The notes beneath the pieces are model-generated. The model did no database searches and had not been told where the DNA came from. It was given only the letters and a program-made list of their open reading frames with translations. Below are positions 59,806-64,000 of a DNA stretch of 64,000 nucleotides, piece by piece. The DNA comes from Portibacter lacus. Lineage in GTDB: Bacteria > Bacteroidota > Bacteroidia > Chitinophagales > Saprospiraceae. The stretch is taken from contig NZ_JAJNKA010000016.1 of NCBI RefSeq assembly GCF_021533215.1, forward strand, positions 1 to 64,000. The letters are read 5' to 3'. Within the stretch, counting starts at the first letter, position 1. Each line of letters starts with the position of its first letter. The translations under genes were made by a program, and so were the position numbers.

Positions 59806-60543
59806 TTACTGCAAGGCAAGGTATAAACCTGCTGCGCAAACTGCACCTATTAAAGGCGCTACCACAGGAATCCAAGCATACGACCATGCGCTATCTCTGC
59901 GTTCTCCTATCGGTAGAATACCATGCATAATCCTAGGTATTAAATCCCTCGCAGGGTTAATAGCATATCCTGTAGGTCCACCTAAAGAGAAACCAATAAC
60001 CACAACGATCAAGGCAACTGGCAAGGCGCCAAGTGATCCTAATCCTATGGTTGTATCTTCCATACCTTCTAGAGTCAATTCCGGACCAGCGATATATAAT
60101 ACTGAAAACAATAGCACAAATGTTCCTATCGCTTCTGTTAAAATATTCGGAATGACATTAGGAATGGCAGGTGTCGTCGCAAATGAAGCTAACTTAAAAT
60201 CTAGATTATCCGTTTGCTTGTAATGATCATAATAAGATAGAACCACAAGAATACTTCCTAATGCAGCCCCGATACATTGACCAGCGATATAAATAGGAAC
60301 TAATCCCCATTCAAACTGTCCCGTCACTGCCAGACCAACACTTACCGCTGGATTAAGATGAGCGCCACTGTAAGGTCCAGCAACAAGAACGCCTACATAA
60401 ACCGCTAGTCCCCAAGCAATTGCTATTCCCACTATTCCTGCATCACCACCTTTGGTTTTACTCAATAATGCATTAGCAACTACACCGTTACCAAGAAGTA
60501 TTAACAGCATTGTACCTATAATTTCTGCAACAAAAGGGCTCAT
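59806..60543 (-). CDS. glpF: glycerol facilitator (aquaglyceroporin)
   Basis: The 245-residue MIP channel has two NPA motifs: N64-P-A in HLNPAVS and N196-P-A-R-D200 in INPARD. The Asp after the second NPAR distinguishes glycerol facilitators from water-only aquaporins. Six membrane helices are present. It should admit glycerol and is paired with glpK, which starts the operon 87 bp upstream. Together they form the glycerol entry and trapping step. Confidence 0.96.
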   Translation of the reverse strand: MSPFVAEIIGTMLLILLGNGVVANALLSKTKGGDAGIVGIAIAWGLAVYVGVLVAGPYSGAHLNPAVSVGLAVTGQFEWGLVPIYIAGQCIGAALGSILVVLSYYDHYKQTDNLDFKLASFATTPAIPNVIPNILTEAIGTFVLLFSVLYIAGPELTLEGMEDTTIGLGSLGALPVALIVVVIGFSLGGPTGYAINPARDLIPRIMHGILPIGERRDSAWSYAWIPVVAPLIGAVCAAGLYLALQ

Positions 60544-60630: not shown

Positions 60631-62115
<1,485 letters not shown>

Positions 62116-62247: not shown

Positions 62248-63609
62248 CTAATTGGCAAAATCATAATTTAGAACTAATTCACCTTTTAAGATATAGTTAT
62301 TGAAGATGGACTGCTCTTCTTGGTCGAAAAAATCAAGGAGTATTTTCTCAAAATATTGATTGGTAAATAGTTTGTTTTCCGTATCTGACAGAATTTGTAG
62401 CATCACATCCTTTAATGAAGTCTTCCCATCAGATTGTGCTTGCAGCTTTTCATCTAAATAATGAGCGTACAAAAGACCTCTTTGATATGGTATTTCTTCT
62501 ATTTGGCTGTTATTCGTTGTCAGACTTAATTCATTGTTGCGCAGTTTACCATATGGTGATTCCTCAAGCTTTTCATAAGTTCTTTGAATTTCTTGGTCAA
62601 ATTCTTTCTGGGTCATTTCATTTTGCTGAAGTATCAATTTCATAGAAAAATACTCCGTAAAGCCTTCTGAAAACCACAGTTCCTCTCCAGGTGAACTATT
62701 TCTGATCTTTCCACCTATCCAGTGATGCATTAATTCATGATAATACAAACTAGAAAGGTTCTCTAATTTGGATTTTTTGCTATTCGTACAATAGGAAGCA
62801 AACCCATTAGCTAATCCAGTCCCTCCAAGATAATTTCCTCCATTTTGATCAAATGGAAGTAAGGTTACTGTATATATATCATCAGAGTAGTCATTCCAAA
62901 AATCTCTCTGAACATGAACAATACGCTCTAATTTCTGGAGTAATTCTTCATCATCAAAACTTTTCCAGCTTCCTCGCGTAAGTAAGTGTAAATTGATTCC
63001 ATTAAAGTTTACACTATGCCTTCTAAAGTCACCACCCACGACTACAGATTCTAATAATTCGTCTCGCGTTAAATAATAAACACCTTCGCTTTCTGTTCCA
63101 AAATTGTGCTGAACTAGATATGGTACTTCTTCCCAATTAATCTCAATGGTATTTTTATTTTTAGACTTAAAAATCTTGTCAGGGATTAAAAAAAGACGAT
63201 GCCCAAATAAATGAAAGTATTCTTTATTAATAATAGGCCGATAATAATCAGATATATTAGCCTCTCCGTCGAAATCTTGTTTTAAAACATATTCTATTAA
63301 CAGTAAATGCCTAGGAAGAGACTTAATAATAATGCTATTCGTTTCTGGGTCAATTTTAATATCAGCTTTCGAATTAAGAACTTCTAATGATTGTAAGCAA
63401 TTAAAAAGATTCTGTTCTCCCCATGCTTCATCAAAATAAACAAGACTTGCTACACCGTCTTCATTGGTTTTTACTTCTAACTGAACTCTAATTGTTGATT
63501 GGCTTGCAGAAAGATTTGGTGTAATTGTATAACTTGCATCAATGGCTAAGACCGCATTATTTATGCAGATTAGGAATAAAAAAGACCAGATGTAATTGAT
63601 TATTCTCAT
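62248..63609 (-). CDS. M1/M61-like zinc aminopeptidase, secreted
   Basis: ATG at 63609 gives 453 residues; a TTG at 63621 would add four. A signal peptide ends VLAID. The zinc motif is H291-E292-x2-H295 in YYHELMHHW, and the downstream Glu315 lies in LWFSEGFTEYFS (24 residues later). This is the gluzincin layout of M1 and M61 peptidases, and the beta-rich first half (about 25-220) fits M61. The GAMEN motif of M1 is not seen; SEGFTEYF is closest to glycyl aminopeptidases. It probably cuts peptides in the periplasm. It is divergent from the rhodanese lipoprotein gene. Confidence 0.88.
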   Translation of the reverse strand: MRIINYIWSFLFLICINNAVLAIDASYTITPNLSASQSTIRVQLEVKTNEDGVASLVYFDEAWGEQNLFNCLQSLEVLNSKADIKIDPETNSIIIKSLPRHLLLIEYVLKQDFDGEANISDYYRPIINKEYFHLFGHRLFLIPDKIFKSKNKNTIEINWEEVPYLVQHNFGTESEGVYYLTRDELLESVVVGGDFRRHSVNFNGINLHLLTRGSWKSFDDEELLQKLERIVHVQRDFWNDYSDDIYTVTLLPFDQNGGNYLGGTGLANGFASYCTNSKKSKLENLSSLYYHELMHHWIGGKIRNSSPGEELWFSEGFTEYFSMKLILQQNEMTQKEFDQEIQRTYEKLEESPYGKLRNNELSLTTNNSQIEEIPYQRGLLYAHYLDEKLQAQSDGKTSLKDVMLQILSDTENKLFTNQYFEKILLDFFDQEEQSIFNNYILKGELVLNYDFAN

Positions 63610-63656
63610 TATAATGTACAATGCCTGCTCTAAAAGACATGATTATTAGCACTAAA

Positions 63657-63717
63657 TTTACATAAAACCAGCGTTTAATTCATATTAAATTTACATTTAG
63701 TTTACATTAAATTAACA
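63657..63717 (+). promoter_or_regulatory. 11-bp-phased direct repeats TTTACAT with Pho-box architecture
   Basis: TTTACA occurs at 63657, 63690 and 63701, and TTAACA at 63712. The last three are spaced exactly 11 bp apart, and the first lies 33 bp (3 x 11) before the second. Each is a 7-base core with a 4-base AT-rich spacer, like the CTGTCAT-AAA Pho box and the TTAACA-N5 PhoP box. The array ends 37 bp before the ATG at 63754 and lies in the divergent promoter with the M1/M61-like gene. Confidence 0.6.
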
Positions 63718-63753
63718 TTGGAAGATTAAATGTTGTACAAATACTCAATAACA

Positions 63754-64000
63754 ATGAAATATTATTTTATCATTATCTCACTTTTTTTAATAGGTTGTAA
63801 TACAAATTCTAACTCTAAAAGTGATCCAACATCATCAACAGCTTCCGCTACTTATAACAACATAGATGTTGCTACTTTTAATCAGGGCCTGAAAGGTGAA
63901 AATAGTGTAGTAATAGATGTTCGTACTCCACAAGAAATTGCAGGCGGAAAGATTGAAAATGCTGTAGAGCTAGATTATTACGACAAGGAATTCGCTTCTA
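63754..64000 (+). CDS. rhodanese-domain lipoprotein (C-terminus outside window)
   Basis: ATG at 63754 opens a frame still open at the window edge (82 codons seen). The lipobox ends LFLIGC (Cys14) and a Ser/Thr-rich linker follows. The start of a rhodanese domain is seen: the segment NIDVATFNQGLKGENSVVIDVRTPQE near 35-60, then GGKIENAVELDYY. The catalytic Cys lies beyond the edge, so activity cannot be judged. Sulfur transfer or a structural rhodanese in the periplasm is expected. The gene sits behind the 11-bp-phased repeat array. Confidence 0.85.
   Translation, partial: MKYYFIIISLFLIGCNTNSNSKSDPTSSTASATYNNIDVATFNQGLKGENSVVIDVRTPQEIAGGKIENAVELDYYDKEFAS

Follow-up and report, generated by a model that had tools for sequence, protein, structure and literature searches.

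A probable Bacteroidota-type Pho box in the divergent peptidase/rhodanese promoter of Portibacter lacus

An array of 7-nt repeats, spaced at exact multiples of 11 bp, is located between two divergent genes of Portibacter lacus, which encode a metallopeptidase and a rhodanese-domain protein. The array is probably a Bacteroidota-type Pho box and thus a putative operator for a PhoB-family regulator. The same motif with the same step was found before phosphate genes of the order and of the class, which supports the Pho-box reading that had been proposed in a first-pass annotation of this DNA. Because the same spaced repeats precede phosphate-uptake genes of relatives, the array is very probably a docking site of the phosphate switch. 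Phosphate control of the peptidase/rhodanese gene pair is likely, as judged from sequence comparisons.

Results

Architecture of the array and the flanking genes

The analyzed stretch of 64,000 nt is called the window throughout, and the features of the region are collected in Table 1. The previously annotated observation of phased repeats was confirmed with small corrections. Direct reading of the sequence verified that all offsets of the cores are exact multiples of 11, as had been annotated, but the last core is TTAACAT and not TTTACAT. The annotated start was also correct, while the true end of the array is position 63718 instead of 63717. The spacers had been described as four AT bases each; this did not hold for two of the four spacers that follow cores 1–4 (AAAA, TTAG, TAAA, and TGGA), as TTAG and TGGA carry non-AT bases. 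The array thus consists of 7-nt direct repeats with a 4-nt spacing (11-nt units) in at least two copies, as is characteristic for a PHO box.

The divergent context was annotated correctly. The Pfam searches yielded Peptidase_M1 for the peptidase (E = 2e-8) and Rhodanese for the rhodanese protein (E = 5.7e-19), whereas the additional labels "secreted" and "lipoprotein" are by-eye readings of the signal-like N-termini. The rhodanese gene is followed by genes for a DUF7009 protein, FdhD, and a molybdopterin oxidoreductase, in this order.

Table 1. Features of the intergenic region and the neighboring genes (positions in the window)
Feature	Position	Strand	Remarks
Pho-box-like array	63657..63718	+	Four full TTWACAT cores in 11-bp register, offsets 0, 33, 44, 55
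Core 1, TTTACAT	63657..63663	+	Same sequence and offset in P. marinus
Core 2, TTTACAT	63690..63696	+	TTCACAT in P. marinus
Core 3, TTTACAT	63701..63707	+	
Core 4, TTAACAT	63712..63718	+	TGG after the core, likewise in P. marinus
Weak in-register core TTCATAT (5/7)	63679..63685	+	Not conserved, 2/7 in P. marinus
Weak in-register core TTAGCAC (5/7)	starts at 63646		
Possible degenerate -7 element TAAATGTT	63727..63734	+	4/6 to TAnnTTTG; 8 bp past the last core; weak
Rhodanese-domain protein, lipoprotein-like N-terminus	63730..64000, on to C7:64155	+	Probable start ATG 63754, MKYYFIIISLFLIGC
M1/M61-like metallopeptidase, signal-like N-terminus	62248..63621	-	Probable start ATG 63609
FGGY-family kinase (glycerol kinase by eye)	60631..62112	-	Behind the peptidase gene, same strand
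MIP-family channel (aquaglyceroporin-like)	59806..60543	-	Behind the kinase gene

Frequency of pairs and triples

Pairs of cores turned out to be uninformative. With up to three mismatches, 90 pairs were seen in the window and 81 were expected, i.e., loose pairs gave no signal of enrichment across the window. In the whole genome, 47 pairs with at most one mismatch were found compared with 36 for a reversed control pattern. Because of these results a pair alone means little, and pairs were not used as evidence.

The perfect triple gave a different result. It occurs once in the 6.31-Mb genome, and five of 298 genomes of the order contain one site each, while the reversed control pattern was found in none. 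Shuffling of the 108-bp intergenic region, which has a GC content of 24%, did not generate a perfect triple in any of 20,000 attempts, and 60 shuffles of the whole window did not generate one either. The four remaining perfect triples in the order precede genes for a DUF2252 protein (with the site reversed), a TonB_C protein, a TonB receptor, and a DUF2490 protein, and none of these four genes has a phosphate-related name.

Repeats before porin and PstS genes

The sequence of the motif came from the focal site and was set before the loci described below were inspected. For the porin test set, 13 of 40 genomes had a match, and 14 of the 15 matches were used, including that of P. lacus itself; the weak match L129 (E = 8e-4) was dropped. 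A pair with at least 13 of 14 matching positions was present on the coding strand in 10 of the 14 loci, compared with none on the other strand and a mean of 0.05 after shuffling. The result was confined to one spacing, as the 11-bp step was found in 10 loci and the steps of 7–10 and 12–21 bp in 0–1 loci each.

The porin analysis was also performed class-wide. Matches were obtained in 86 of 296 genomes, and the best 29 new loci, which are not a random draw, were chosen; L195 and L202 were dropped because no ORF was found. In the remaining 27 of these best 29 loci, 15 pairs with a score of at least 12 were found in forward and 9 in reverse orientation (shuffle mean 1.04), and at a score of at least 13 the numbers were 7 and 3 (shuffle 0.07). 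Again, the 11-bp step was the most frequent, with 7 of these 27 loci compared with 0–3 for the other steps. The 9 loci that reach at least 12 in reverse indicate that reverse-oriented boxes exist, too. The enrichment was modest for PstS promoters: at a threshold of 12 of 14, a forward pair was found in 6 and a reverse pair in 3 of 29 loci (shuffle mean 0.94, maximum 3). These loci were the best-scoring 30 and not a random sample, from which L159 was dropped because it had no ORF.

In the P. lacus genome itself, the promoter of the porin-NptA operon, which consists of a Porin_O_P gene and a Na/Pi cotransporter gene, carries two repeats, and a lipoprotein-TonB receptor gene pair also has a box. 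Of the 47 pair matches in this genome, 28 could be placed against ORFs, two (L028 and L037) overlap others, and 17 were without a locus. Nine of the 28 placed sites are inside ORFs, and only two, both at the porin gene, precede a recognized phosphate gene. The genome encodes two Na/Pi cotransporters, and in the surroundings of the second NptA gene no matrix score (see below) above 10.3 was obtained. A PstS-type protein (PF12849) was not found in this genome, whereas 98 of the 149 searched genomes of the order have one.

A matrix derived from porin promoters

A matrix was built from 25 of 41 porin promoters, exclusively from other genomes; the 16 excluded promoters were either from P. lacus or had no coding-strand pair of at least 12. 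The focal site reached a score of 24.1, the highest in the window, compared with 12.0 for the next site outside the array and 17.9 for the best site in three shuffled windows. It also had the top score among 25 stretches of the P. lacus genome, above the boxes of the porin gene of this species (20.7 and 18.1).

Two other strong sites in the same genome are at unexpected positions. At C43:177,959-177,998 (L021 7960-7999), a strong four-unit array with 11-bp steps (TTAACAT, TAAACCT, TTAACAT, and TTTACAT) is situated between convergent genes, a place where one would not expect a promoter. A role in the regulation of a sulfatase operon was considered and rejected, because the array lies behind the sulfatase gene and between convergent genes; it is possible that it belongs to a small RNA or is an inert site. 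At C10:63,083-63,111 (L022 5084-5112), a near-perfect triple with one mismatch points away from the gene it precedes. This gene encodes a protein of 162 aa without a Pfam match, and the site lies behind a sigma-factor gene with DUF6596. Because these two strong sites appear misplaced and few pair sites are found at phosphate genes, the matrix score alone is not proof.

A composite promoter with a fixed spacing

In Bacteroidota, TAnnTTTG is the -7 element of promoters, which differs from the -10 of the sigma70 promoters of E. coli. In the porin promoters, the distance between core and TAnnTTTG was 8 modulo 11 in 22 of 41 core/-7 pairs, which are not independent, as several stem from the same locus. 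A composite promoter, TTWACAT-N4-TTWACAT-N8-TAnnTTTG with at most one mismatch, was searched in the order. It yielded 63 matches in 52 of 396 genomes (L217-L279) and 5 control matches. Phosphate-uptake or PhoB-type genes follow 29 of the 63 matches, namely DUF47-PiT (11), porin (9), a PhoB-type regulator (6), NptA (2), and PstS (1). The proposed check of the initial reading, i.e., whether phosphate genes are preferentially preceded by the repeat, had a positive outcome, with the porin promoters of relatives, the porin-NptA operon of P. lacus, and the composite matches in agreement.

The assignments were obtained in several ways. For 52 of the 63 matches, a downstream ORF was found by script and its product was scanned with Pfam. 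These 52 proteins include 9 DUF47 proteins, 6 Porin_O_P proteins, 5 PhoB-type response regulators, 1 Na/Pi cotransporter, and 1 PstS. For the five regulators, PhoB models had the best E-values among the families that all five match. At a later stage, ORF reading served to assign four more loci (L230, L238, L257, and L263), three of which were checked with Pfam (in L257, the PiT gene). L242 and L244 were assigned by alignment to the porin of P. lacus (185/401 and 55/113 aligned columns, respectively), and L264 was assigned by its second gene, Na_Pi_cotrans. A PiT (PHO4) gene follows the DUF47 gene in all four of the eleven loci that were tested with Pfam (L228, L231, L251, and L257).

The 52 downstream proteins also include 15 with CarboxypepD_reg and 8 with PF25183, and many are TonB-receptor-like. 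Three are sigma factors according to Pfam; the sigma-factor loci are L219-L222 and L247, two of which were recognized by eye. Over 346 residues, the protein encoded downstream in L269 has 74% identity with a lipoprotein-like protein encoded on contig C40 of P. lacus. The promoter of this C40 gene, which lies beside a TonB receptor gene, has a box plus TACATTTG at a distance of 30 bp (8 + 22). Pfam searches with both the L269 protein and the C40 protein yielded no match; inspection by eye led to the guess that they are beta-helix proteins.

A membrane protein family without a Pfam match (MWLGF..YSVVGND.IQTLGTFL) was observed near Pho-type boxes in two genomes (L131 2-982 and L264 351-1400). In L264 its gene is located directly 5′ of the NptA gene. 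The family is possibly an unrecognized phosphate permease.

The composite promoter was found neither in the P. lacus genome nor in that of P. marinus (0 matches), and the -7 element of the P. lacus porin gene is at 9 bp and not at 8 bp. The focal site does not follow the 8 + 11k spacing between box and TAnnTTTG, a rule that was derived here from porin promoters and is not a published definition. At 8 + 11k bp from the focal array, no sequence agrees with TAnnTTTG at 5 or 6 positions, and an exact -7 box was thus rejected as a feature of this site. In P. marinus, a perfect -7 element (TATCTTTG) is found at 23 bp.

Conservation in Portibacter

The gene order kinase, peptidase, rhodanese, DUF7009, and FdhD is the same in P. 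marinus, and the rhodanese and the peptidase are 50–52% identical between P. lacus and P. marinus. The intergenic region of P. marinus has cores at offsets 0, 11, 33, 44, and 55, each with 6 or 7 of 7 matching positions. Within the four shared cores, 27 of 28 bases are identical between the two species, compared with 18 of 34 bases between the cores (Fisher p = 1.2e-4), which suggests that the cores are under selection. P. marinus is classified as Saprospiria, Haliscomenobacteraceae, and a further genome of the same genus (G002) is identical to P. marinus in sequence at the locus.

The result was different for the congener G001 (locus L060). In this genome, the FGGY kinase gene adjoins rhodanese-DUF7009, and both the peptidase gene and the box are absent between them. 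The best matrix score in the intergenic region of kinase and rhodanese was 4.3, while between the rhodanese and DUF7009 genes the minus strand has a match with a score of 16.0. From their joint absence, the box may be related to the function of the peptidase gene, or a single deletion may simply have removed both. In summary, the absence of the repeat in close relatives, which had been named as an argument against the initial reading, was not seen in P. marinus, where the array is kept in the same register, but was seen in G001.

Candidate regulators

The P. lacus genome encodes seven Trans_reg_C proteins, five of which were scanned against NCBIfam. The best match of the regulator encoded on contig C1 (at about 196658-197341) was PhoB (Bacteroidota) with 211.7 bits, which is below the cut-off of 270, and the adjacent gene encodes a PnpS/PhoR-like kinase, also below the cut-offs. 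All five compared regulators with composite promoters are closest to the C1 regulator; for example, one of them has 133 of 222 identical residues with the C1 regulator versus 112 of 221 with the C40 regulator. The recognition stretches of the C40 and the C1 regulators, VGERTIDVHISKLREKIG and VGDRTIDVHIRKLREKIG, are nearly the same. No box with a score above 8.5 was found in the 14 kb that surround the gene of the C1 regulator.

The C40 regulator is an orphan. Its gene is divergent from the lipoprotein-like gene and the TonB receptor gene, the promoter of which has an in-phase box; the whole locus is at about 372,276-377,662 of C40 (L172 8277-13663). This regulator/lipoprotein/TonB-receptor locus resembles, by layout alone, the reported layout of the phoBR cluster of Flavobacterium.

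Discussion

Comparison with known PHO boxes

In bacteria such as E. coli, the PHO box has been described as two 11-nt direct-repeat units with 7 conserved and 4 less conserved nucleotides, to which PhoB binds head-to-tail (available part of PMC4415409). The array of P. lacus has the same 7 + 4 direct-repeat architecture and the same 11-bp step, but the core of E. coli is CTGTCAT and that of the array is TTWACAT, and the array comprises four full cores and a two-unit gap. The PhoP box of Bacillus subtilis is TT-ACA-N5, and TTWACAT-N4 can be read as TTWACA-N5, i.e., core and step are the same, although B. subtilis belongs to another phylum and has another RNA polymerase.

Within the phylum, a DAP-seq motif of PhoP has been reported for Riemerella anatipestifer, in which TTTAACA is most conserved, and its PhoPR is reported to be upregulated under phosphate starvation. 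The core of this motif overlaps with TTWACAT, but in that study it was compared with the motif of ArcA and linked to virulence genes; the available part gives neither a direct-repeat step nor a spacing to the -7 element (PMC9603813). In F. johnsoniae, depletion of Pi induces TonB receptors and lipoproteins, some of them in the phoBR cluster; OprP is not induced by Pi depletion, which counts against the Pho-box reading (available part of PMC8115612). TonB-receptor-like and lipoprotein genes are box-bearing in the present study as well, a likeness by gene type. The terms "Pho box", "motif", "promoter", and "rhodanese" have no occurrences in the text of PMC8115612. In B. fragilis, PhoB binds to the pstC promoter (PMC3547664), and putative Pho boxes have been noted in front of the plcP clusters of marine bacteria (PMC4796936); the available parts of both papers give no box sequence. 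A definition of the Bacteroidota Pho box was not among the listed titles and abstract beginnings of open-access papers.

Alternative explanations

The presence of the array might be due to chance, or it might be a signal of AT-rich, curved DNA without a specific regulator. The low GC content of the intergenic region would fit to this, as would the genome-wide number of pairs, which barely exceeds that of the control. However, shuffling of the region never generated the perfect triple, the reversed control pattern had no match in 298 genomes, and the motif returns before porin genes at a single spacing. The chance and curved-DNA readings are therefore disfavored, and we regard them as very improbable.

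It is also conceivable that the site is bound by a PhoB-family member that prefers the same DNA but responds to another signal, e.g., the orphan C40 regulator, so that the genes would not be phosphate-starvation genes. The number of Trans_reg_C proteins and the similar recognition stretches of C40 and C1 leave room for this explanation, which is also in line with the binding of Riemerella PhoP upstream of hundreds of genes via a motif likened to that of ArcA (available part of PMC9603813) and with the 34 of 63 composite matches that could not be assigned to phosphate-uptake or PhoB-type genes, including the CarboxypepD_reg proteins (15 of 52) and the three sigma factors. It is nevertheless unlikely in our view, because nearly half of the composite matches (29) do precede such genes, and because the five regulators with composite promoters are all closest to C1, which adjoins the PhoR/PnpS-like kinase. 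Slightly less probable still is a box to which PhoB binds with no effect on transcription, or one that is a relic. The focal site does not have the usual distance to TAnnTTTG, a comparable array is located between convergent genes of the same genome, and inert PhoB sites have been reported for E. coli (available part of PMC10294691), but the conservation of the cores, which far exceeds that of the bases between them, suggests selection. The reading as a Bacteroidota-type Pho box is thus preferred.

A possible mechanism and its implications

If the array is a Pho box, a PhoB-family regulator would bind the head-to-tail TTWACAT-N4 units in tandem, with one subunit for each helical turn. We infer that the binder is PhoB, probably the C1 regulator with its adjacent PhoR-like kinase, and that phosphate is the signal. 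At low phosphate, the cores would be filled by phosphorylated PhoB, and transcription would be changed on one or both sides. The affected genes could be the rhodanese-DUF7009-FdhD-molybdoenzyme operon on one side and, on the other side, the peptidase gene followed by the glycerol-kinase-like gene and the MIP channel gene. The indications for the regulated side are not uniform: the orientation of the cores points to the rhodanese operon, whereas G001, which lacks the box together with the peptidase gene, points to the peptidase.

A more general model, which we put forward tentatively, is that many phosphate promoters of Bacteroidota contain TTWACAT units at 11-bp steps that end 8 (+11k) bp before TAnnTTTG, so that a PhoB filament would be in phase with RNA polymerase. 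Portibacter might have recruited such a filament site, off the standard spacing, and might thereby couple phosphate starvation to the peptidase/glycerol-uptake-like genes and the rhodanese/FdhD-molybdoenzyme genes.

If this is true, a usable consensus and a spacing rule for phosphate-controlled promoters would be available across a large phylum. The spacing rule could help to predict the phosphate regulons of Bacteroidota from sequence, with the composite promoter as a regulon finder. The focal site would add the peptidase/rhodanese locus, which was unexpected from the gene names, to the candidate phosphate regulon.
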